Shown: piece by piece, positions 46,474 to 57,729 of the stretch
How positions within the stretch are numbered: the first letter of the stretch is position 1
How the letters are laid out: the number at the start of each line of letters is the position of its first letter
Assembly (NCBI GenBank): GCA_017938315.1
Contig: JAGBBV010000040.1
Span: forward strand, 1 to 57,788
Origin: Lachnospiraceae bacterium
GTDB taxonomy: Bacteria > Bacillota > Clostridia > Lachnospirales > Lachnospiraceae
Reading direction: 5' to 3'
DNA length: 57,788 bases
Translations under genes and position numbers: made by a program
Notes under the pieces: generated by a model
What the model was told of the DNA's origin: nothing
Database searches by the model: none
The model's input: the letters and a program-made list of their open reading frames with translations, nothing else

Positions 46474-48084
46474 CTACACATACTTTTCAAGGGTTCTACG
46501 TACGCTACCGGGTGCTGCAATCATTTCTTTAAAGTAACTGCATACCAAATCAGCCATACCAACCTCATACAAATCTACGCCGAAAATCTTACTGTTTTGA
46601 AGAATCGGTTTGATTTTTTCTTCTACATCTGCATTTTCTCCCAGTTTGATACCTTCCACATAAGGACAAACTTCAGAAAGAAGCGGATCGGGACTTAATT
46701 CAAAAGCATTTCCCTCATCATCCACTGCCATCAGATATCTGAGCCAGCCTGCAAATACAAGAGGAATCAGCTTTAATGAGGATACATTAAGTTTATCGGA
46801 AGCTGCATAAGCCTTAATGGTTTCCCCGAAACGGATGGCAAGCTTCTGGGATGTATCTGTAGCAATTCTCTGGGGAGTATCCGGCATAAAAGGATTGGGA
46901 ATACGCACATTTACTACTGTGTCAATAAATTCCTTGGGATCAAGAATACCGGGATTAATTACCACGGGAAGGCCTTCCACATAGCCCACACCTTCTACCA
47001 GTTTCTTTAAGGTTTCATCCTTCATTTCCTTGGAAATCAAATCATATCCAAGGAGACAGCCGTACACGGCAAGGGAAGTATGAAGAGGATTTAAACAGGT
47101 ACAAACCTTCATCTTCTCAACTTTGTCAACAGTTTCCCTTTCTGTAAACATGATACCGCCTTTTTCCAGCTGCGGTCTGCCGTTCGGGAATGCATCTTCA
47201 ATTACCAAATATTCACACTCTTCTGCATTGACAAAGGGTGCCACATAGGTATTCTTAGACGTAATGACGGGCTCTAACTGCTCAACACCGTCTTTCATTA
47301 ACATCTCTTCTACGGAGGCATCGGGTCTTGGGGTGATTTTGTCAATCATGCTCCAAGGGAAGGATACCTTGTTTTTATCATTTACATAAGCGGTAAAGCC
47401 TTTCTCTGCAAGTCCTTTTTCTTCCCATGTTTTTGCAAAAGCATGGATCGCATCATAAAGTTTGTCCCCGTTATGGGAGCAGTTATCCATGCTGACCATG
47501 GCTACAGGCTTTGCACCTGCGAGAAAACGGGTATATAAAAGGGATGCCACCTTGCCAATATAGCTGACAGGCTTTTTGGGACCTTTCGCAAAATCTTCTT
47601 CCACAGAAGAAAGAAGGGCTCCTTTTCCGTCTACCAGACTGTATCCCTTCTCGGTAATGGTAAAGCTAACCATCTGCAGGGAATCCTGCTCAAAAATTTC
47701 TTTTAAGCGGCCATAATGGGTATCATTTTCAGAGTCAAGCACCAAGGATTCCACCACACTGCCGATGACTGTCTTTTCAATATTTCCGTCTGCCTTCAAT
47801 GTGGCAAGGATAGAATAACTGTCATGGGGAAGATACATTTTTTCTATAATTTCATAATCATAGCCTTCTGTTACGATAAGTCCTCTGTCAAGTACACCTT
47901 CATTCAAAAGATTCTGTACCACATTGGCCTGAAAAGCACGGAAAATATTTCCCGCTCCAAAATGAATCCAAAAGGGCGCTTCCTTTGTTTTCTTTGTCAC
48001 TGCTTCTCTGTCATACTCAGGAAGTTTATAACCGGCATCCAGCCACTCTTTTGCATTTTGCACACCTGCATTGTTTAACTTCAC
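46474..48084 (-). CDS. uxuB: Fructuronate reductase (mannitol dehydrogenase family)
   Basis: This polyol-dehydrogenase-family NAD enzyme of 536 aa has the Rossmann start WIHFGAGNIFRAFQ (about 38-51), VSMDNCSHNG (about 200) and the core CLNPLHTSLAVYG (about 335), in which the catalytic Lys/His region lies. As it is directly downstream of mannonate dehydratase, the likely reaction is D-fructuronate to D-mannonate in glucuronate breakdown. The start is GTG at 48084 with AGGAGG upstream, 24 bp after uxuA. Kinase and aldolase genes for the later steps are not here. Confidence 0.88.
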   Translation of the reverse strand: MKLNNAGVQNAKEWLDAGYKLPEYDREAVTKKTKEAPFWIHFGAGNIFRAFQANVVQNLLNEGVLDRGLIVTEGYDYEIIEKMYLPHDSYSILATLKADGNIEKTVIGSVVESLVLDSENDTHYGRLKEIFEQDSLQMVSFTITEKGYSLVDGKGALLSSVEEDFAKGPKKPVSYIGKVASLLYTRFLAGAKPVAMVSMDNCSHNGDKLYDAIHAFAKTWEEKGLAEKGFTAYVNDKNKVSFPWSMIDKITPRPDASVEEMLMKDGVEQLEPVITSKNTYVAPFVNAEECEYLVIEDAFPNGRPQLEKGGIMFTERETVDKVEKMKVCTCLNPLHTSLAVYGCLLGYDLISKEMKDETLKKLVEGVGYVEGLPVVINPGILDPKEFIDTVVNVRIPNPFMPDTPQRIATDTSQKLAIRFGETIKAYAASDKLNVSSLKLIPLVFAGWLRYLMAVDDEGNAFELSPDPLLSEVCPYVEGIKLGENADVEEKIKPILQNSKIFGVDLYEVGMADLVCSYFKEMIAAPGSVRRTLEKYV

Positions 48085-48107
48085 GATCTCTTCCTCCTAC
48101 CTGCTTC

Positions 48108-49172
48108 CTAGTTACTCTTCTCGATTGCTTCCCAAAGTCCGTTTAAGTAAGCTGCACCAAGTGCTCTGTCATAAAGACCGTAACCGGGCATTGCCACTTC
48201 ATCCCAAATCATACGTCCATGGTCGGGACGAATGGGACCTGTAAAGCCGATATCATAAAGTGCTTTCATAATCTCATACATATCAAAGCTTCCGTCAGCA
48301 GACAAATGTGCTGCCTCTTCGAAGTCTGTGGGAGAATTAAACTTTAAGTTTCTTACATGTGCAAAATGAATTCTTCCTTTTAAAGAACGGATCATATCAG
48401 GAAGATCATTTTCTAAGTTGGTACCGTAGGAACCGGAACAGAAGGTGACACCGTTATGAGGGTTGTCTACCATGCTCATCATACGCAAAATGTTCTTCTT
48501 ATTAATAATAATTCTGGGAAGTCCAAATACGCTCCATGCCGGGTCATCCGGGTGAATTGCCATGTTAATGTCATATTTATCGCAGACAGGCATAATTCTT
48601 TCAAGGAAGTATTTCAGATTTTCAAATAACTTTTCATCATCTACATCCTTATACATTTCAAATAACTCTTTGACACGTGCCATACGTTCAGGCTCCCAAC
48701 CGGGCATTACCGTACCGTTGGTATCTCCTGCTATGGATTCAAACATTTTTTCAGGGTCAAGTGCATCCACTGCTTCCTGTGTATAGGCAAGCACTGTAGA
48801 ACCATCAGGACGCATTCTGGCAAGCTCAGTTCTTGTCCAGTCAAATACCGGCATGAAATTGTAGCATACCATATGAATATCTTCTTTTCCTAAATTTTCA
48901 AGTGTTTCAATATAATTTTCAATATACTGTTCCCTGTCGGGAGAACCGATTTTGATAGCGTCGTGTATATTGACACTTTCAATCCCTGCAATGGTAAGAC
49001 CTGCTGCCTCTACTTCATCCTTCATCGCACGGATGCGTTCCCTGCTCCAAACTTCACCGGGTGCTGTATCATATAAAGTGGTAATAACCGCTTTCACACC
49101 GGGAATCTGGCGGATTTGTTTTAAGGTAACTGTATCAAATTTAGAACCGTACCATCTTAATGTCATCTGCAT
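48108..49172 (-). CDS. uxuA: Mannonate dehydratase
   Basis: This TIM-barrel enzyme dehydrates D-mannonate to 2-keto-3-deoxygluconate. It has the N-terminus MTLRWYGSKFDTVTL, AIHPDDPAW (metal ligands, about 200), NGVTFCSGSYGT and the C-terminal RPDHGRMIWDE typical of UxuA. The start is placed at the ATG at 49172; the longer frame would use a TTG. It leads a two-gene operon with uxuB and faces an AraC-type regulator across 190 bp. Confidence 0.93.
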   Translation of the reverse strand: MQMTLRWYGSKFDTVTLKQIRQIPGVKAVITTLYDTAPGEVWSRERIRAMKDEVEAAGLTIAGIESVNIHDAIKIGSPDREQYIENYIETLENLGKEDIHMVCYNFMPVFDWTRTELARMRPDGSTVLAYTQEAVDALDPEKMFESIAGDTNGTVMPGWEPERMARVKELFEMYKDVDDEKLFENLKYFLERIMPVCDKYDINMAIHPDDPAWSVFGLPRIIINKKNILRMMSMVDNPHNGVTFCSGSYGTNLENDLPDMIRSLKGRIHFAHVRNLKFNSPTDFEEAAHLSADGSFDMYEIMKALYDIGFTGPIRPDHGRMIWDEVAMPGYGLYDRALGAAYLNGLWEAIEKSN

Positions 49173-49237
49173 AACTATATACCTGCCCTTCTTCAAATTA
49201 AATATCGTAATTTTCTCTCATAATTCTTTACATTAGC

Positions 49238-49266
49238 ATTATAATGAAATGCCACTTTAAATGCCA
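49238..49266 (-). promoter_or_regulatory. uxuAB promoter with overlapping direct repeats
   Basis: A perfect TATAAT (49238-49243) lies on the minus strand with a weak -35 (TGGCAT, 49261-49266) 17 bp upstream. AAATGCCA occurs twice on the plus strand (49247-49254 and 49259-49266, period 12), covering the spacer and the -35. This looks like a regulator site, probably for the divergent AraC-type protein. The rest of the 190-bp gap holds the araC-side promoter, roughly TTGTGC-N18-TATGAT. Confidence 0.6.
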
Positions 49267-49362
49267 TTGACGCTTTTGTTGTATACATTGCAAAAGTTGC
49301 GATTTTGTGCTATTTTATATACATACTATATGATATTATTGGTAATTATACGGAGATTTATT

Positions 49363-50271
49363 ATGCAAAAAAAATTACAAACCAGTTTCAGTACCCGTCA
49401 ATATATGCTTTCCAAAGATTACGAGCTGTATTACTATAACGATTCTACTTTAAATATGGTAGACCGCCACACCCACGACTATTATGAATTTTATTTCTTT
49501 TTGGAAGGAAATGTAAGTATTGAAATCGGAAAAGATATCTACCGCATCACACCGGGAGACATCATTATCATACCTCCCGCTGTTTCACACAGACCCATTA
49601 TTCACAATGTGGATGTTCCCTACCGTCGCTTTGTTTTTTGGATCAGCCGGGACTTTTGCAACCATCTGTTAAATCTCTCCTCTGACTACGGCTATATTAT
49701 GCAGCTTGTAGAAACCAAAAAAACTTATCTTTTCCATAATGACAGAATTACCTTTAATGCCATACAGTCCAAGCTTCTTCTTTTACTTGAAGAAATGCAT
49801 GGAAACCGTTTCGGAAAACGGCCCCAGCTCTCCCTATATGTGAGCGATTTAGTGCTCCATTTAAACCGTCTTGTCTATGAAAAGGAGCACCCTTCTGCAC
49901 CGGGAGAAATCCAGGCACTTTACCGGAAAATTTGCAGTTTTATCGAAAGCCATTTAGACGAGGATTTATCCTTAGACCGGCTTGCAGGAGAATTCTTTGT
50001 AAGCAAATACCATATTGCCCATATTTTCAAGGAAAACCTGGGGCTTTCCATTCATCAGTATATTACAAAAAAAAGACTGGCTCATTGTCGCCAGTCTATT
50101 ACAGGTGGTATGAATATTACTGAAGCTTATCACAGCTTCGGTTTCGGAGATTACTCCAGCTTCTATCGCGCTTTCAAAAAGGAATACGGCATTTCTCCCA
50201 AGGATTATGTTGCATCCACCCAGAATTCCGAGATGCTCAAACAAAATCCCGAGGAACAACCTACCCATTAA
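49363..50271 (+). CDS. AraC-family transcriptional regulator
   Basis: The 302-aa protein from the ATG at 49363 (GGAG 8 nt upstream) has an N-terminal cupin-type sugar-sensing domain (VDRHTHDYYEFYFFLEGNVS, then PGDIIIIPP) and a C-terminal pair of helix-turn-helix motifs (LAGEFFVSKYHIAHIFKEN and the signature FGFGDYSSFYRAFKKEYGIS). Its divergent position suggests it controls uxuAB. The end overlaps the convergent DHH gene by 11 bp. Confidence 0.9.
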   Translation: MQKKLQTSFSTRQYMLSKDYELYYYNDSTLNMVDRHTHDYYEFYFFLEGNVSIEIGKDIYRITPGDIIIIPPAVSHRPIIHNVDVPYRRFVFWISRDFCNHLLNLSSDYGYIMQLVETKKTYLFHNDRITFNAIQSKLLLLLEEMHGNRFGKRPQLSLYVSDLVLHLNRLVYEKEHPSAPGEIQALYRKICSFIESHLDEDLSLDRLAGEFFVSKYHIAHIFKENLGLSIHQYITKKRLAHCRQSITGGMNITEAYHSFGFGDYSSFYRAFKKEYGISPKDYVASTQNSEMLKQNPEEQPTH

Positions 50272-51769
50272 CCGGTTCATAGGACTTCATAAAGATATTT
50301 TTTTCAATCACATAAATATCATGCAAATCATCCTTGCGAGCCGCCAGATAGTCTCCGTCTCTGCCCAGCATATAGCTGTCAGGATCCCACTCCGTAAATA
50401 TCTTTACCCTATGATCTAATTCCTTCACATAAATATAATTTTCTCCGGTGGCAACACATGCTTTTGCATAAGGAATTAAGGATATATTATGTCCCTCTGT
50501 CACATCCTTTACCACAGGCGCATATTCCCCGTCAAAGTTGTATGCTTCCTCTAATATCTTATAACTCTTTTCAAACTTTTCCTTTTTATTGGGATAAATT
50601 TCACCTTTAATCCCTATCATAATGTAGGTATCTTCCTGTACCTCTACGTCCATATCCCCTTCCAGTGTACGTACAGACACCATGGTACCGGGCTCAAAAA
50701 TTTCTGCTGCCTTCACAAAACCAACAGGTATATTTTTCTTTTTGTAGAGGGTCATTTCAGCTAAGTCCACATGATACTCCTTGGGATGTATAATCACAAT
50801 ATCATCAAAATAGTCAATCATCCGCCAATCAAGGAAAGCGGCAACGTCTTTTTCTTTGTGATACTTTTCATATGCCTTTTCCAAAAGACCTGCCTGAATA
50901 AAGCCACCGGCCTTTTCCAAATGTCCGCCGCCGGAGCCAATGCCGTCTGTAATGAATTCTGCCAATTCATATGCCTTCACTTCTTTGACACAACTGCGCA
51001 CAGATATCTTTACGCCAAAAGGCAGGATACTGTACACAAGACAGGTATCCACAGAATCCACCTCAAGCATCATATCACTGATAATCCCCAAAATATTAGG
51101 GTCACAGGGATTTGCCCGGACAATGGCATACCGGTACATTTCATTATAATGATAACCAAGCAAGGCATTTCCCGCTATTTCCAATTCCTTTAAGGAAAGG
51201 TTTGCATTTTTAAATCTGGTAATTAAGCTCTTATCAAACTTTGCATCATCCCGTAAATCCTTATCAAGGGGATGAAAGATTTCCGCAAAATTATTGGTAT
51301 CTGTCATCAGCCCGTAATAGAATGCCGTAGCAAGTCTTTTCTCAGTGGCGGCATCAATTCCTTCTAAAAGCAGCAATTCCCTTACCACCGTAGAGCAGGC
51401 ACCGATATTACTTCTCACTTCATTTAATTTCGGCAGTTCCCCAGCCAGCTGATGGTGGTCAATGACAGCTACCTCTTTCGCCGGAAAACAGGTAACATTT
51501 CCCTGTCCATACTGGCAATCTACCGTCACAAGCATATCCGGTTCCTCTAAAGTTTCTACATATTCAATGGGAATATCCAGTTCCTCTATCATCAGCAGTA
51601 AATTGGTTTTTTGAACCTTAAATTTACCGCCATAAATAAGGCGCACCTGTTTTCCCTTATCTTTCAGATAGCAGTATACACCAAGACCACTTGCCATGGC
51701 ATCCGCGTCCGGATTATCATGACATTGGATTACAATATTGTCATACTCTAAAAGTTCTTTTAACCGCAT
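50261..51769 (-). CDS. DHH-family phosphoesterase with extra C-terminal domain
   Basis: The N-terminal 310 residues form a DHH/DHHA1 phosphoesterase: CHDNPDADAMASG (about 17), TVDCQYGQGN, VIDHHQLAGE (about 105) and the substrate loop GIGSGGGHLEKAGGF (about 275). Relatives cut oligoribonucleotides, pAp or cyclic dinucleotides. The last 150 residues are an addition with two similar units (IKGEIYPNKKEKFEKSY and, later, GRDGDYLAARKD with IFMKSYE), reminiscent of PGDYG-type domains. It starts 24 bp after the TIR protein stop with AGGGA upstream, so both are probably on one transcript. Confidence 0.85.
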   Translation of the reverse strand: MRLKELLEYDNIVIQCHDNPDADAMASGLGVYCYLKDKGKQVRLIYGGKFKVQKTNLLLMIEELDIPIEYVETLEEPDMLVTVDCQYGQGNVTCFPAKEVAVIDHHQLAGELPKLNEVRSNIGACSTVVRELLLLEGIDAATEKRLATAFYYGLMTDTNNFAEIFHPLDKDLRDDAKFDKSLITRFKNANLSLKELEIAGNALLGYHYNEMYRYAIVRANPCDPNILGIISDMMLEVDSVDTCLVYSILPFGVKISVRSCVKEVKAYELAEFITDGIGSGGGHLEKAGGFIQAGLLEKAYEKYHKEKDVAAFLDWRMIDYFDDIVIIHPKEYHVDLAEMTLYKKKNIPVGFVKAAEIFEPGTMVSVRTLEGDMDVEVQEDTYIMIGIKGEIYPNKKEKFEKSYKILEEAYNFDGEYAPVVKDVTEGHNISLIPYAKACVATGENYIYVKELDHRVKIFTEWDPDSYMLGRDGDYLAARKDDLHDIYVIEKNIFMKSYEPVNG

Positions 51770-51793
51770 ATTGGTCCCTTTCTATAGTTTCCC

Positions 51794-54700
51794 CTACTGT
51801 ACACGATACTTTATTCTCTCTGCTTCTGTCAACCGTTCTAACCCAAATTGTTCTATTGCTTCCTGCTTTAACATTTCCAGTGTCATATAGGGGAACTGAT
51901 ACAGGGTTCCATAGTATCCGCTTAATATCACACCATGTTTTGGCAAGTAGATTTTTCCATCTTCAATTCTGGCCGTCATTTCATAGCTGTCTGCATTCAG
52001 TATGAGCATATCTGCCAGTGTAATCAGACTGATGGTTCCGGTTTTTTCATCTGTCACGGCCTTCTCTATTTCATAATACTGATTCAGTGCAATATAGGTA
52101 AACTTTTCTTCCTCTAAGCTATAAACCTTAAAGTAATAGTCATCCCCCTGCAGCATAATCTCTAAGTCATCTGCACTAAACTGGATGAACCTGCGGTTAA
52201 TGCCGGTAAAGGGAATTTCCGCTATGGTTTCTTTCTTTTTGGTATCAAAAACCCGGAGCATGCCATCGCCGCAGCTGACCGCAAGTAATTCCCCGTTGTT
52301 TGAGGACTTGAAAAGTTCCTGTGCCTCGAAGCCGTTTAGCACAATGTATTCTTCTCCAAGAGGCGTAAGCTCTCCCGTTTCCATATCTACTATGTTAACA
52401 CCCTTGTCTTCTATATTGCAGTACGCATATTTTCCGTCATTTGATATGATTGCGGAGCGGATGAAATCCTCGGTTTCCTGTGAAGATATTATTTCACGTT
52501 TTTGTAAGTCAATGACCATAAGGCGGTGTCCGCTGTAGGCAAGGAGAAGGGACATGTCTTTATTGGCATCGTATTCAAGGGAAAGGAAGTCTTCTTCTAA
52601 AAGCATGGTTTGCTTTTCACCGGTTTCTAAATCAAAAAAGAGAATACTTCCGTCACTTCTTGCAAGCATATAAACGCTATCACTGATAAATCCCTCAAAC
52701 AAAGCATGCTTTTCTTCCACCCATTCGTGGATAAGTTCATGATCCGATGTCCGATAAAAACAGAGCCTTTTACCCACATCAAAATCATATAAATCTACCG
52801 CATAGTAAGTCTCCTCTTTTGACGATGTAATCTCTGCAATACTGTCATCATGCTCTGCCAAGCAATTTACTTGTGCTTCCTGCGGGTACTTCATAACCGT
52901 AAGTTCCGGAGATGCATAGGAACGGAACAATATTTTACCGTTACGAATGGACAAATCTTTTATTTCTTTGCCTGTTTCAATTGCTGCTCCACTGTATTTG
53001 ACGCCGGTAGTCATATTTACAATCTCTATAACGCCATTGTTTTGAGCCAAATATATATTTCCTGAATTAACTGAAATCAACAGGTTTGTAATCCCGTTAC
53101 TTACTTCCAGTTCATTAATTTTTTCCCCGGTTTGTCCGTTCCATGCCCGCACAGTATTATCTACTGACATAATGACTTCATCATGTACCTCTCCTGTAGA
53201 TGCATCCGTATAACACCTACATTTTATCTCGGAACCGGCTGCTTCATATCCCACTTCCTGATACTCATATGTATCACACCATAGTTCAGAATTACTCTTT
53301 ATATCCAGTTTTTGGACAAGAGCCTGTCCTTTGTTTTCACCGGAATTCATGATGTCAGCATACATAGTCTGTGTTGCAACAATACAATTATCTGTTGTAA
53401 ATACCATGTCTGTGATATACGTTGCTTTTGTCTCAATATCCGTAATAGTTCCTGTTTGAAAATCATACACACTGATATAACCATTTGTGGCTTCATCTTC
53501 AGTATTTATGTGGGATATTGCAAACTTACTTTTATCATCGCTATATACCATCACTCTTGAGTAGGAAAATTCCAAATTATTGGGTAGTGTTGCTATCACA
53601 TCCCCGTTGGTTATATCATAAATCACAACTTCCTCATTGCAGGCACATGCTACCATCTTTGCAGTCTCATCAAATTCACAGTATGTGGTTCCCAACGGTC
53701 TTTCAATATTCCAAAGCACTTCCCCATCAAAGGTAAATGCCTGCAACTGCTCATCTTTACAGATAATCAGGCTATCCTCATAAACCATAGCTGCAATAGG
53801 CATGTCCAGATATCCAAATGAATCTATTTGGGGTGCAATCTGTGCCAATTTTTGACCGTGTGTTATATCCCATGCATACACGGTTCCGCTCTGGTCTATG
53901 GATATCGCATACGCTCCATCCTGATTAAAATAAAAATCTGTAACCGGCAACTCATGTGATAAAACGCGGTCCATCTTCATTGCATTTCCGGTATCATAAC
54001 TGTACAGAGCCTGGCTAAGTGCGTACTGTGCCTCTGCTACATAGGGTCTGTCATTTTCCTCAGAAGGAAGTGCCTCAAGCGCTACAAGTACTGCCGCCCG
54101 CCTGTCACCTTCTTCCAACAAAGTAAGTGAGGTATCTGCAAGGTACTTGGACTGATTGCGCTGTTTACCTTCCAAGTTCTGCCTGATAAGTGCTGCATTA
54201 TAAGTGCTGTATGCACCAAATGCCAGTGCACCTGCTGTCACCACAGCCGCTATAGCTGCCAGACGTTTCATCTTACGCTCTCTGTGACGCTGCTTTAAAT
54301 CGTCATAGGTGCATCCTAAAAGCGGTGCTGCAAGTCTCATCACTTCTGTTCTTAACTTCCGTTTTGTTTCCCTTTTTGATATGCCTCTAACATCTGCTGC
54401 CAATGGCTCTACGGGATTCCCTTCATCATCAGACAGCAAAAGAGACGGAAAAGACTCATCCGGCTCTCCCTCAATTAAAACAGCCAAAACCTTGTCTCTT
54501 CCGTGCCTTCCGATAAATGTTTCGATTTCCTTCTGTACCCAGTAAGACTGTGGTGTCCTGGGTGAGCAGATTACTAAAAGATATTCGGACTCCCGAAGTG
54601 CATTTTCAATATTATCGCCAAGGTCACTTCCAATGGGAAGTTCCTCCTGATCACGAAATACTCTTTTAATATTCTTTTTCCCTGTTTTCTTTGCAACTGC

Positions 54701-54799
54701 TTTCGGTACTTTAAAGGTCTCTAAAGCTTTATGTAATTTCTTAGCTATGTATAAGTCCAATTCCGCATGGCGGTAGCTGATGAAGGCATCGTATCTCAT
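51794..54799 (-). CDS. TIR-transmembrane-WD40-like propeller protein
   Basis: A TIR domain (about 1-140) begins RYDAFISYRHAELD, has box 2 RDQEELPIGSD, and the helix SYWVQKEIE, where Glu91 occupies the place of the catalytic Glu of NAD-cleaving TIR enzymes. A basic stretch leads to one membrane segment (about 180-200). Then a helical region (SLTLLEEGDRRAAVLVALEA) resembles the linker before beta-propellers in STAND ATPases, but no NTPase is present. Residues 275-990 are strand-rich repeats (TVYAWDI, VRAWNGQTGEK, LRVFDTKKKE) of WD40 type, probably two propellers. So TIR would be inside, and the propeller outside, the cell if the topology is N-in. It is followed closely by the DHH gene. Confidence 0.88.
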   Translation of the reverse strand: MRYDAFISYRHAELDLYIAKKLHKALETFKVPKAVAKKTGKKNIKRVFRDQEELPIGSDLGDNIENALRESEYLLVICSPRTPQSYWVQKEIETFIGRHGRDKVLAVLIEGEPDESFPSLLLSDDEGNPVEPLAADVRGISKRETKRKLRTEVMRLAAPLLGCTYDDLKQRHRERKMKRLAAIAAVVTAGALAFGAYSTYNAALIRQNLEGKQRNQSKYLADTSLTLLEEGDRRAAVLVALEALPSEENDRPYVAEAQYALSQALYSYDTGNAMKMDRVLSHELPVTDFYFNQDGAYAISIDQSGTVYAWDITHGQKLAQIAPQIDSFGYLDMPIAAMVYEDSLIICKDEQLQAFTFDGEVLWNIERPLGTTYCEFDETAKMVACACNEEVVIYDITNGDVIATLPNNLEFSYSRVMVYSDDKSKFAISHINTEDEATNGYISVYDFQTGTITDIETKATYITDMVFTTDNCIVATQTMYADIMNSGENKGQALVQKLDIKSNSELWCDTYEYQEVGYEAAGSEIKCRCYTDASTGEVHDEVIMSVDNTVRAWNGQTGEKINELEVSNGITNLLISVNSGNIYLAQNNGVIEIVNMTTGVKYSGAAIETGKEIKDLSIRNGKILFRSYASPELTVMKYPQEAQVNCLAEHDDSIAEITSSKEETYYAVDLYDFDVGKRLCFYRTSDHELIHEWVEEKHALFEGFISDSVYMLARSDGSILFFDLETGEKQTMLLEEDFLSLEYDANKDMSLLLAYSGHRLMVIDLQKREIISSQETEDFIRSAIISNDGKYAYCNIEDKGVNIVDMETGELTPLGEEYIVLNGFEAQELFKSSNNGELLAVSCGDGMLRVFDTKKKETIAEIPFTGINRRFIQFSADDLEIMLQGDDYYFKVYSLEEEKFTYIALNQYYEIEKAVTDEKTGTISLITLADMLILNADSYEMTARIEDGKIYLPKHGVILSGYYGTLYQFPYMTLEMLKQEAIEQFGLERLTEAERIKYRVQ

Positions 54800-54934: not shown

Positions 54935-56467
54935 TTAATTCTGTATCATTATTTCTTCCAATGAACCAAATTTCAAAACAAGTCCTGTCATTTCTTCTAC
55001 TTCCTGTTCTGTGAAATGATTAGACCCACTATATTCCATTTTTATCTTTTCATCATCTTTATAATAATAGTAATATTTATATGTCAGTTCTCCGCCTTCA
55101 CACACAGCTTCGCGGAAGTCATAAGACATTTCATAAACCGCCCCGTCTACGCCGGTAAAATTATAATGCCAACTATCTCCCTTAACCTCACTTCCTTCTC
55201 TTTTCAATATTTCATATAAAGTCCCGAAACTAACACCGGAACCAGAACGTGATGTACATAAGTCTTTATAGCAATCAAATGTTTTACCTTCACCATCAGA
55301 CTTAAGAATTGCCACTCTGCGACCCGAATCAGCAATTGCACTTTCCAATTCTTGTTGCGTAAAATCTGCAAGTAATTCCTCGTATCGGTAATCCATACAC
55401 ACTTTTATATATTTTTTCATTGCTTCTTCATATACTTCATCTGTATAAACCATTAGATTTTCAAGGTAATCTCCATCATCTATTTGGTATTCTGTCTGGC
55501 ATCTTAACTTATGTGCAAAATCCATATCTATGCAAACTGTAACATTATCAGTATATTTTTCTTTATATTCCAGAAAATCTTTTACTTCCTCCAATGCCGC
55601 TTCCAGTTCAGCTCTATTCGAAAAAGTTGTATGTAATCGTGCACTCTTCCATTGTCCATCCTCATTTACTTCCAGGGTAAATATATCATTTTTCCCATAT
55701 GCCTCGTATAGCTTAATCAACGCATTCGACGAATAATCATCATGCAAATGTCTACTGCTAAACATTCCCCCAAAACCATCACTATAATAATCTTCTACAT
55801 GAAAAGTACAACCATAGTCCCCTTCAACCGTCACTGTCCAGTAATAATCACCGTTAATTTCCTTCGATTCTTTGCTTAAACTATAGTCATCAAAATTATA
55901 GTTTTGTTTGATGTACCTTTTTACATCACCTCTACTATGTATTTTGGCACCACCATTACATGCGGATAGTAGTGTCGATAATAGAAATAGACATATTGCC
56001 ATTTCTATTATCATCTTTATTGCTATTGTCCCGGCTATTGCTGACAATACAAGCAACACATCTTTGGTTTTTTTCTTTATCTTTTGTTTTCCAGGAATAT
56101 GCTCTGCTTCTTTTCCCCTTGATTGTTCTGACCATTTTAAGTATTCTCTATTTTCATGTCCCAATAAAATTATTAGAAGCATTGATATTGTCCATATAAA
56201 TTCTATTGGGTTCATAACAGATAGTGCAATCTGCATTATTAACATTCCCACACTCAATGCATAATCTCTATCATTAATAGCCATAAACAGCGTTACCATT
56301 GCACCTAATGAAAGCACTCTTCGTCCCATACCTAGCACTCTGACATAAAAAGAGTCTGCTATTAGCATCTCCACTCCTTGTTTGAATTCATTACTTTCCG
56401 GCATTGCTGCCACTACTATAAGAAAGACTACCGGTATCAAAGTTATCGCCAGTTTCAAAGCATTCAT
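54935..56467 (-). CDS. Membrane protein with large outer domain, unknown; 5' end possibly truncated
   Basis: About 510 residues. The N-terminal part has three to four membrane segments (about 5-25, 52-68, 75-92 and 95-107) and a further one near 150-172 that ends in a lipobox-like LLSAC-NGG. The rest (about 175-510) is a polar domain rich in Tyr and Asp (YSDGFGGMFSSRHLHDDYSS, YKYYYYYKDDEK) probably outside the cell. I do not recognise it. The ATG at 56467 has no ribosome-binding site, and the frame stays open up to the IS element junction, so the true start may have been cut off. It lies 136 bp upstream of, and co-directional with, the TIR-propeller gene. Confidence 0.65.
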   Translation of the reverse strand: MNALKLAITLIPVVFLIVVAAMPESNEFKQGVEMLIADSFYVRVLGMGRRVLSLGAMVTLFMAINDRDYALSVGMLIMQIALSVMNPIEFIWTISMLLIILLGHENREYLKWSEQSRGKEAEHIPGKQKIKKKTKDVLLVLSAIAGTIAIKMIIEMAICLFLLSTLLSACNGGAKIHSRGDVKRYIKQNYNFDDYSLSKESKEINGDYYWTVTVEGDYGCTFHVEDYYSDGFGGMFSSRHLHDDYSSNALIKLYEAYGKNDIFTLEVNEDGQWKSARLHTTFSNRAELEAALEEVKDFLEYKEKYTDNVTVCIDMDFAHKLRCQTEYQIDDGDYLENLMVYTDEVYEEAMKKYIKVCMDYRYEELLADFTQQELESAIADSGRRVAILKSDGEGKTFDCYKDLCTSRSGSGVSFGTLYEILKREGSEVKGDSWHYNFTGVDGAVYEMSYDFREAVCEGGELTYKYYYYYKDDEKIKMEYSGSNHFTEQEVEEMTGLVLKFGSLEEIMIQN

Positions 56468-56515
56468 TATCAATACAATTATAATTCCAATCGGTTTTTG
56501 GATCTATATTATAAA

Positions 56516-56578: not shown

Positions 56579-56872
56579 ATGTCCACAAACAAACGCGGAA
56601 ACCGTTACGACGAGGAGTTCAAGCGAACTCTCGTCAATCTTTATCAAAATGGGAACAAGTCCCAAGCTGCACTCTGCGAAGAGTACGGCGTTTCAATAAA
56701 CGCCCTCGGCCGCTGGATTAAACAATATTCCACCGTCGAAACCGATGATGGCGAAGTACTAACCGCTCTACAGGTAAAAGAACTTCAAAAACGAATGGCT
56801 CAACTCGAAGAGGAGAACCTCATACTAAAAAAAGCGATTGCCATCTTCACGCCACACTCAAACAACGATTAG
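56579..56872 (+). CDS. IS3-family transposase OrfA
   Basis: The 97-aa protein starts STNKRGNRYDEEFKRTLVNL and has a helix-turn-helix (KSQAALCEEYGVSINALGRW, about 24-43) followed by a leucine-zipper-like helix (about 65-90) for multimerisation. AGGAGG lies upstream of the ATG. It ends shortly after a run of seven A where ribosomes can slip into the OrfB frame. Confidence 0.93.
   Translation: MSTNKRGNRYDEEFKRTLVNLYQNGNKSQAALCEEYGVSINALGRWIKQYSTVETDDGEVLTALQVKELQKRMAQLEEENLILKKAIAIFTPHSNND
56827..56834 (+). other. Programmed -1 frameshift site
   Basis: A-AAA-AAA-G in the OrfA frame, the standard IS3 slippery heptamer. A -1 shift continues the protein directly into OrfB, giving the OrfAB transposase. 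Confidence 0.8.
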
Positions 56873-57729
56873 AAGCTGTTCATAAACTAAGACTCCAGCA
56901 CGACATCAAAACATTATGCCGTGTTCTGGGTGTTAATCGCAGCACATACTACAAGCATTACAATTCAGAACCAGCTAACCGTACCAAAGAAAACCAAGAG
57001 ATTGCAAAGATGATTCTTCAAATCTATGCATATTATAATAAGCGTCTTGGTGCATATAAAATCACTTACGTTCTCAAGCGTGATTATGGCATTAACATCA
57101 GCGTCGGACGAGTGTACCGACTGATGAAAAACCTACAGTTACCAAGAATGTCAACTGACAAGCCACATCACCGTGGCAATCATTCTGATAATGGTGATTA
57201 TACCAATCATCTTCACCAAGAGTTCAATCAAAAGGCTCCAAACATTGTCTGGACCAGCGATTTTACATACATCAAAGTAAATGGTAAGTGGTATTATCTC
57301 TGTATTGTAATGGATTTATTTTCTCGCAAGGTTATCTCCTGGCACATTTCAGGGAAACCGGATGTTGACCTTGTCATGACTGCCTTTAAAAAAGCTTATG
57401 CTAAGCGGAACACACCCTCCGGCTTGATGTTCCATTCTGATCGGGGATCTCAGTACACTGCCTTTGCATTTCGGCAGTTATTGGATTCTCTTAATGTCGT
57501 GCAATCCTTCTCCAAGAAAGGATATCCCTTTGACAATGCTTGCTGTGAATGTTTCTTCAAATACCTCAAAAAGGAAGAAGTTAACCGAAGAACATATCAC
57601 ACCTTACAAGAATTGCACCTTTCTGTATTTGAATATATTGAAGGATTCTACAACTCTAAGAGACCTCATGGCTCTCTTGCAATGATGACACCTAATGAAA
57701 AAGAAGAACTATACTGGGAACAGGCCTAG
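56833..57729 (+). CDS. IS3-family transposase OrfB (DDE catalytic part)
   Basis: Read after the frameshift, OrfB begins SDCHLHATLKQRLEAVHKL, the usual IS3 OrfB entry with the HTH_21 region (CRVLGVNRSTYYKHY). The rve integrase core carries the DDE acids in WTSDFTYIK, HSDRGSQYTA and DNACCECFFKYLKKE. All three are present, so the enzyme may be active. An internal ATG at 57010 exists, but the upstream 60 residues are conserved family sequence, so frameshift entry is more likely. Confidence 0.92.
   Translation, partial: SDCHLHATLKQRLEAVHKLRLQHDIKTLCRVLGVNRSTYYKHYNSEPANRTKENQEIAKMILQIYAYYNKRLGAYKITYVLKRDYGINISVGRVYRLMKNLQLPRMSTDKPHHRGNHSDNGDYTNHLHQEFNQKAPNIVWTSDFTYIKVNGKWYYLCIVMDLFSRKVISWHISGKPDVDLVMTAFKKAYAKRNTPSGLMFHSDRGSQYTAFAFRQLLDSLNVVQSFSKKGYPFDNACCECFFKYLKKEEVNRRTYHTLQELHLSVFEYIEGFYNSKRPHGSLAMMTPNEKEELYWEQA

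Follow-up and report, generated by a model that had tools for sequence, protein, structure and literature searches.

Do a TIR protein and a DHH phosphoesterase encoded side by side in a Lachnospiraceae bacterium belong to one signaling pathway, and which signal would then pass between them? The question is posed by a stretch of 57,788 nt (assembly GCA_017938315.1, contig JAGBBV010000040.1), the whole of which was analyzed and is called the window here. The pair occupies positions 50261..54799 on the minus strand, as do all of its features given below: the TIR gene (51794..54799; ATG start, 1001 amino acids (aa)) is followed, after a spacer of 24 bp (51770..51793), by the DHH gene (50261..51769; ATG start, 502 aa). 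A first-pass annotation had linked the two from gene order alone, and this link now gains comparative support; when the DHH protein carries a further domain, ct, a TIR gene lies no more than 2 kb away at 31 of 58 loci, and at 57 of 77 in another sample, as against none of 40 DHH genes without ct (plain DHH). As judged from sequence comparison, the pair of TIR and DHH-ct is very probably a conserved and recurrent module, which is spread over several clostridial families among gut and rumen Clostridia.

The 58 loci comprise a family sample (200 genomes of the window's family, one per genus, from which 33 ct-bearing DHH genes in 32 genomes were taken), a class-wide sample (the ct profile matched in 27 of 391 genomes, giving 25 further loci) and the window itself. 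A DHH gene cut by a contig end (G128) was excluded from the linkage counts, a weak ct match with a stop (G343) was not included, and a partial DHH gene (G089) was excluded from the DHH tree. The TIR-propeller gene of G022 (L061:8578-11679), which is split into two frames by an in-frame stop and followed by an intact DHH-ct gene, was counted for linkage and excluded from alignment A2. The linked TIR genes take four arrangements relative to DHH-ct: on the same strand, 8 lie upstream of it and 11 downstream, whereas 11 are convergent with it and 1 is divergent. Same-strand pairs other than that of the window are mostly spaced by −38 to +83 bp if each gene is taken to begin at its first start codon. 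In the tree of DHH proteins, the label of a propeller-type TIR partner needs six changes, at least five of which are forced by starred branches.

As the control, 150 TIR_2 matches from 84 genomes, among the matches listed, were used (88 genomes had a match), together with 40 plain DHH genes that were likewise taken from among the matches listed in the family sample and are not a total. A listed TIR_2 match lay within 5 kb of 17 of the 33 ct-bearing DHH genes but of none of the 40 plain ones (Fisher test, 6.6e-8), and within 10 kb of 19 and none, respectively, while 25 of the 39 genomes bearing the plain genes did possess a listed TIR; the chance expectation for a TIR gene by a DHH gene is about 0.26% per gene. 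Also, a listed TIR_2 gene was present in 23 of the 32 genomes carrying DHH-ct as compared with 65 of the 168 other genomes (p = 8e-4). The second sample consists of the best 80 loci in named genomes, mostly labeled Lachnospiraceae; it holds the nearest relatives of the window's pair and overlaps the earlier samples. Three of these loci gave no DHH-ct frame, leaving 77, and 54 of the 57 linked TIR genes were on the same strand as DHH-ct, often abutting or overlapping it (starts again being the first start codon). At L175, which was counted among the loci lacking TIR, a propeller frame runs into the end of the contig. Within the window's genus, the DHH query matched at 1e-20 or better in 27 of 37 genomes, plain DHH included, and the 16 ct-bearing loci divide into four with a TIR-propeller gene, four with a TIR-MORN-type gene and eight without TIR; the pair of G592 is not among these loci.

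The DHH protein of the window has a DHH domain at aa 11-153 (51311..51739; PF01368, 1.7e-14, 54.6 bits against a cut-off of 28.1) with an intact metal site, the residues of which (H17, D21, D23, D84, D104-H105-H106 and D157) were invariant in 32 of 32 proteins and, save for one gap at D21, in 77 of 77. The DHHA1 domain at aa 216-302 (50864..51124) scored slightly below the cut-off (PF02272, 23.8 against 25.9 bits), and its GGGH motif is kept in all 77 DHH-ct proteins; the model of the protein has a predicted local distance difference test (pLDDT) score of 90.4, and its fold match to DHH-DHHA1 enzymes spans aa 1-326. The first-pass annotation was right in describing a DHH phosphoesterase but missed the ct domain of about 190 aa (aa about 312-498; 50276..50836). 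This part has no match in Pfam. In PHROGs, ct matched phrog_419 (8.1e-9 for the window's protein and 1.1e-10 for that of L063) and also families 4502, 36774 and 1810, and alignment by hhalign with a phage PGDYG protein, a type that is of unknown function in PHROGs, gave 97.7% for a first PGDYG-like unit and 71.8% for a weaker second one. The comparison of the two units with each other (hhalign, 6.4%, E = 0.0016; three column shuffles, 0.058 to 0.2) only weakly suggests that ct might be composed of two equal repeats. A search of the ct sequence against solved structures returned nothing convincing, the fold search of the entire protein being filled by its DHH part.

The ct domain marks the TIR-linked form of DHH. 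Indeed, the four ct-less DHH genes of the window's genus (L150-L153) were likewise not found beside a TIR gene, and all four stay with GGDEF-EAL genes. These DHH proteins are 49-60% identical to that of the window over the DHH core; their genes are preceded by the GGDEF-EAL genes and followed by a glutaminyl-tRNA synthetase-like gene (by eye), and the DNA match of L153 also holds two stop codons. Conversely, ct was found without DHH in four genomes among the matches listed (G014, G125, G177 and G188); in all four, a class III cyclase and a TIR gene are close by. The cyclase is fused to ct in G014 and was judged by likeness in G125, where the TIR gene lies just upstream of the fetched stretch; a GGDEF gene is beside ct and the cyclase in G014, G177 and G188. 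Thus, ct is found both on an enzyme that cleaves nucleotides and on or beside one that makes them, and TIR is near in either case. In an operon of this sort (L098:6986-11506; also L099, L097 and L091), we noticed genes for a GAF-GGDEF protein, a TIR protein with a zinc ribbon (by eye), a receiver with a class III cyclase, and a ct protein; the cyclase is PycC-like (4.7e-22), and cyclase and ct are fused in L097.

The partner of DHH-ct in most linked loci is a TIR protein with a tandem propeller like that of the window. Others are a TIR protein with a membrane segment and DUF6273 (L074, L078 and L107), a short membrane TIR protein (L088), and a TIR-MORN protein (L144 and L149, by Pfam; L148 and L145 hold close look-alikes, named by likeness to those). 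In five close pairs, the identity was 79-85% for the TIR domain, 45-53% for the ectodomain, 71-76% for the DHH core and 62-69% for ct; the ectodomain diverges faster than the TIR domain, as would be typical of a receptor whose sensor part varies.

As for the TIR protein itself, open reading frames, Pfam, the structural model and the alignments around the glutamate agree with the layout given in the first-pass annotation: namely, a TIR domain with Glu91, one membrane segment and a WD40-like propeller, ending 24 bp before a same-strand DHH gene. The TIR domain (aa 2-165 by a local profile; 54305..54796) scored 45.5 bits for TIR_2 (PF13676; cut-off 28) over aa 6-113 and 35.3 bits for ThsB_TIR (cut-off 21.2), and, as was claimed, no NTPase family appeared among the best 25 of 26 Pfam matches. 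Glu91 (codon 54527..54529) is the predicted catalytic residue for cleavage of nicotinamide adenine dinucleotide (NAD) and is kept in 35 of 35 TIR proteins in one alignment and 60 of 60 in another, the two sets partly overlapping; PMC10022894 speaks of a catalytic glutamate for the TIR proteins of Thoeris. Hydropathy places the single membrane segment at aa 180-200 (54200..54262), with seven Lys/Arg residues before it and two after, and the TIR side is therefore predicted to be inside. In the AlphaFold model (pLDDT, 85.9), the TIR domain is followed by a single helix (aa 165-229) spanning this segment and then by blades (aa about 275-970), which correspond to a predicted extracytoplasmic tandem propeller (aa about 270-970; 51890..53992). 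The blades matched ANAPC4_WD40 (36 against 22.9 bits) and the NUP159/214 propeller (30.6 against 29.6) over their cut-offs, while the WD40 repeat model PF00400 remained below it (21.9 against 27). Tandem WD40 proteins, for instance Utp21 and Apaf-1, are among the 50 rows of the Foldseek search, whose TM-scores over the whole chain are low (0.2-0.3), so that only the repeat class is shown; blade repeats of the WD40-like kind are seen by Pfam, model and Foldseek together.

A clue to the signal comes from relatives of the window's genus. In G584 and G615, a run of four genes encodes a membrane protein ending in an RyR domain, a small PGDY protein, DHH-ct and a TIR-MORN-type protein; in G583 and G616, the RyR, TIR-MORN-type and DHH-ct genes are not all on one strand, and in G611 just RyR and DHH-ct are present. 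Such runs lie at L144:3062-8932 and L145:5486-10531, and also in L148, L149, L147 and L215; in the last one, which is from the named sample, the contig ends in an RyR fragment, next to which are DHH-ct and a TIR protein of the TIR-MORN type. PF02026 was over the cut-off at all five RyR sites (9.9e-9 for L147), and the RyR proteins have a Rossmann-like middle (by eye). A 2026 preprint (PMC13232231) shows phage RyR-domain proteins (RyDEP) that cleave or sequester the cyclic ADP-ribose (cADPR) isomers 2'cADPR and 3'cADPR made by TIR enzymes, and it names H75, W78, H100 and D117 as the ligand contacts of a phage RyR domain. The pattern H-x2-W-x21-H-x16-D is present in all five RyR proteins, with 5 matches in total among the 1034 open reading frames examined; this spacing is the same as in RyDEP, and a signal of the cADPR kind is therefore supported. 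An RyR domain was found in 10 of the 71 genomes searched; in G013, the RyR gene is about 3 kb from a TIR gene and DHH-ct is on another contig. The search of the window's own genome gave no RyR match, and the RyR proteins of the relatives hence speak for the kind of signal and not for the effector of the window. In those relatives, the RyR-domain membrane protein is likely a candidate cADPR-responsive effector.

Taken together, the comparison shows a TIR protein, which usually spans the membrane once and ends in an interchangeable domain that evolves faster and is predicted to be outside, encoded beside a DHH-DHHA1-ct protein. We propose, at a probability of roughly one half and with the chemistry inferred, that a TIR receptor in the membrane would produce a nucleotide from NAD, to be read or destroyed by DHH-ct. 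An outside cue would be sensed by the ectodomain, and the TIR domains would cluster and turn NAD into a signaling nucleotide, for which the cADPR type is the most likely. Through ct, DHH-ct would read this signal or be restrained by it, and it would cleave either the signal or a nucleotide made downstream of it, by which the response would be short-lived; in relatives of the window's genus, the RyR-domain membrane protein would be the likely effector that binds the signal. Such a scheme would suit the idea of the first-pass annotation that maker and breaker of a signal are coupled.

Several observations weigh against this proposal. The objection, foreseen in the first-pass annotation, that the DHH gene may be widespread without the TIR gene partly bites: no TIR gene is present in the fetched stretch of 27 of the 58 DHH-ct loci, some of which have enzymes of cyclic di-GMP (c-di-GMP) turnover instead, nor in 20 of the 77 loci of the named sample (six of them with little flank), and L138 has a DHH protein 74% identical to that of the window and yet no TIR gene beside it. 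Also, a TIR_2 match is absent in 9 of the 32 genomes carrying DHH-ct. Of the 24 genomes in which a relative of the TIR-propeller protein scored at least 150 bits, 7 have no DHH-ct, nor does DHH-ct accompany the relative in G613, which was matched in its TIR part only; the linkage statistics take no account of kinship. The idea of a membrane receptor with its propeller outside mostly holds. While the best membrane segment has more Lys/Arg residues ahead of it than behind it in 28 of the 31 linked TIR proteins and the ectodomain evolves faster, no segment passes the hydropathy threshold in five of the 31 (L067, L075, L085, L119 and L122), and the charge rule is undecided in three (L074, L078 and L085). 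The RyR evidence, furthermore, is from relatives with TIR-MORN-type genes and not from the window, and the enzyme cleaving 2'/3'cADPR described in PMC13232231 is a glycosidase and not a DHH enzyme. Finally, the DHH-ct genes beside EAL, GGDEF-EAL or HD-GYP genes point to turnover of pGpG or of dinucleotides in general.

This last observation leads to an alternative that we consider possible, if doubtful: DHH-ct would be a dinucleotide phosphodiesterase in the turnover of c-di-GMP or cyclic di-AMP (c-di-AMP), converting pGpG or pApA to mononucleotides, with TIR as a non-enzymatic or separate input that recruits or switches it, and the signal would be a classic cyclic dinucleotide rather than a TIR product. 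A GGDEF-EAL gene is directly before DHH-ct in L084, L139, L140, L142, L146 and L217, an EAL gene is beside it in L079 and an HD-GYP gene in L087; as described above, the ct-less DHH genes of the window's genus keep the same company in four of four loci, and the neighbors of the DHH fold cleave pApA or c-di-AMP, as far as entry titles tell. NrnA-type DHH enzymes cleave pGpG according to PMC6256023, and the substrate of DHH-ct may therefore be a plain dinucleotide. The absence of TIR beside plain DHH (0/40 and 0/4) argues, however, that the TIR-linked ct form is special, and a pure scaffold does not need the catalytic Glu that is kept in 60 of 60 TIR proteins. The RyR-domain partner with its cADPR-binding residues also speaks for a TIR-made signal; in L079, EAL and TIR genes are both beside DHH-ct.

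We regard it as improbable that the pair is an anti-phage system related to Thoeris, in which TIR makes a cADPR isomer upon infection and the DHH protein serves as an effector or a safety valve. The TIR domain is similar to the ThsB_TIR and SAVED-TIR models, ct resembles phage proteins, and the sister operon described above couples TIR with a cyclase matching the PycC models of Pycsar, all of which would suit such a system. The proteins of the window, nonetheless, match the system models of PADLOC and NCBIfam over the TIR domain only or not at all, and likewise the scanned TIR, RyR and PGDY proteins of relatives have no system-model match beyond the TIR domain. No ThsA-like gene is beside the pair in the window, the neighbors look like housekeeping or signaling genes (mostly by eye), and the sensor is predicted to face outward. 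The defence role raised in the first-pass annotation hence found no support, no known system being matched over the full length in a scan of the window's proteins, not of whole defence islands. That the two genes are chance neighbors with unrelated roles is extremely improbable: a promoter-like site (51832-51803; 10 of 12 matches) just before the DHH gene could be a separate promoter (the stretch has 38 such sites against 25.8, standard deviation 5.2, in shuffles), and there are genomes with only one of the two genes, but we reject chance adjacency because of the linkage counts given at the outset, which hold over several gene orders and TIR types. The same promoter and terminator scan found no terminator-like site between the two genes on their strand.

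Beyond the proposed TIR receptor with its DHH-ct partner, a broader and rather unlikely extension may be drawn from the sequence relations of ct: PGDYG-type domains might be readers of TIR-made signals in general. Membrane TIR receptors of gut Clostridia would make a cADPR-like messenger, which ct would sense either on DHH (cleaving) or on or beside a class III cyclase (making); in the window's genus, the messenger would act on the RyR membrane protein as a counterpart of the cADPR-ryanodine receptor axis, and small phage PGDYG proteins would be decoys soaking it up. In three neighborhoods of phage PGDYG genes, where many annotations are "hypothetical," no anti-TIR or NAD gene stands out, and the idea of decoys therefore derives from the sequence relation alone. 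Two gut records labeled "Bacteriophage sp." carry DHH-ct, and both were discounted as phage copies because their remaining genes look bacterial (by eye); in one of these, L126 (MT836910.1), which is probably not phage, TIR overlaps DHH-ct.

The pair in the window is flanked by the genes for an AraC regulator and for a 512-aa protein. The latter (54935-56473) is 135 bp upstream of the TIR gene, contains three hydrophobic stretches and matched no family significantly, and two open reading frames resembling an IS3-type transposase pair (56579-57729; by eye) adjoin the upstream end of the module. On the other side, the 3' end of the AraC gene overlaps the DHH gene by 11 bp; together with a mannitol-dehydrogenase-family gene and the D-mannonate dehydratase gene uxuA (2.9e-149), it makes the region 46474-50271 probably a hexuronate-use locus.

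Among the papers listed in searches of the open-licence literature of PubMed Central, we have not found one on the pair of TIR and DHH-ct; TIR proteins with WD40 are the subject of papers such as PMC10907252 and PMC7159879. Bacterial TIR proteins have mostly been studied as parts of phage defence; a receptor-type TIR with a nucleotide-cleaving partner, if true, would be TIR signaling that can be switched off, maybe for ordinary sensing. A statement in PMC13232231 has it that no protein was known to hydrolyze 2'cADPR or 3'cADPR before the phage enzyme of that study, and DHH-ct provides a starting point in the search for a cellular enzyme by which TIR signals are terminated. Our proposal also offers a testable role for PGDYG-type proteins and bacterial RyR domains.

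Among known systems, Thoeris is similar in having a TIR of the TIR_2/ThsB_TIR type with the catalytic Glu and in that a partner gene could handle the TIR product. In the window, however, the TIR domain shares one protein with a membrane span and an ectodomain that faces outward, and the partner is DHH-DHHA1-PGDYG instead of a ThsA-type effector; the latter was not found beside the TIR gene (the search covered the neighbors in the window, not the whole genome), and Thoeris models were matched weakly and over no more than the TIR domain (ThsB, 0.005; NCBIfam Thoeris, 13.4 of 220 bits). Because there is neither an effector beside the pair nor a full-length match, membership in Thoeris was rejected. 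The DHH-DHHA1 phosphodiesterases NrnA, TM1595, Rv2837c, DhhP and GdpP are without ct, whereas the form in the window has ct and the TIR linkage. NrnA (nanoRNase A) was rejected on the equivalog cut-off of NCBIfam (18.1 against 350 bits) and GdpP on its layout; GdpP has N-terminal membrane, PAS and degenerate GGDEF domains, while the DHH domain of the window's protein starts at aa 11. A DHH-DHHA1 nuclease degrading the messenger of type III CRISPR is cited in PMC7824862 (ref. 164, by title), and signal breakers with this fold therefore have a precedent. In the window's genus, the RyR protein encoded next to DHH-ct shares with RyDEP the four ligand residues at identical spacing but is cellular and has two N-terminal hydrophobic stretches (by eye). 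Animal Toll-like receptors, finally, consist of an ectodomain, one membrane span and a cytoplasmic TIR domain. Their likeness to the window's protein is one of layout, with no claim of descent; the order is reversed so that TIR is N-terminal, and a propeller stands in the place of the leucine-rich repeats.

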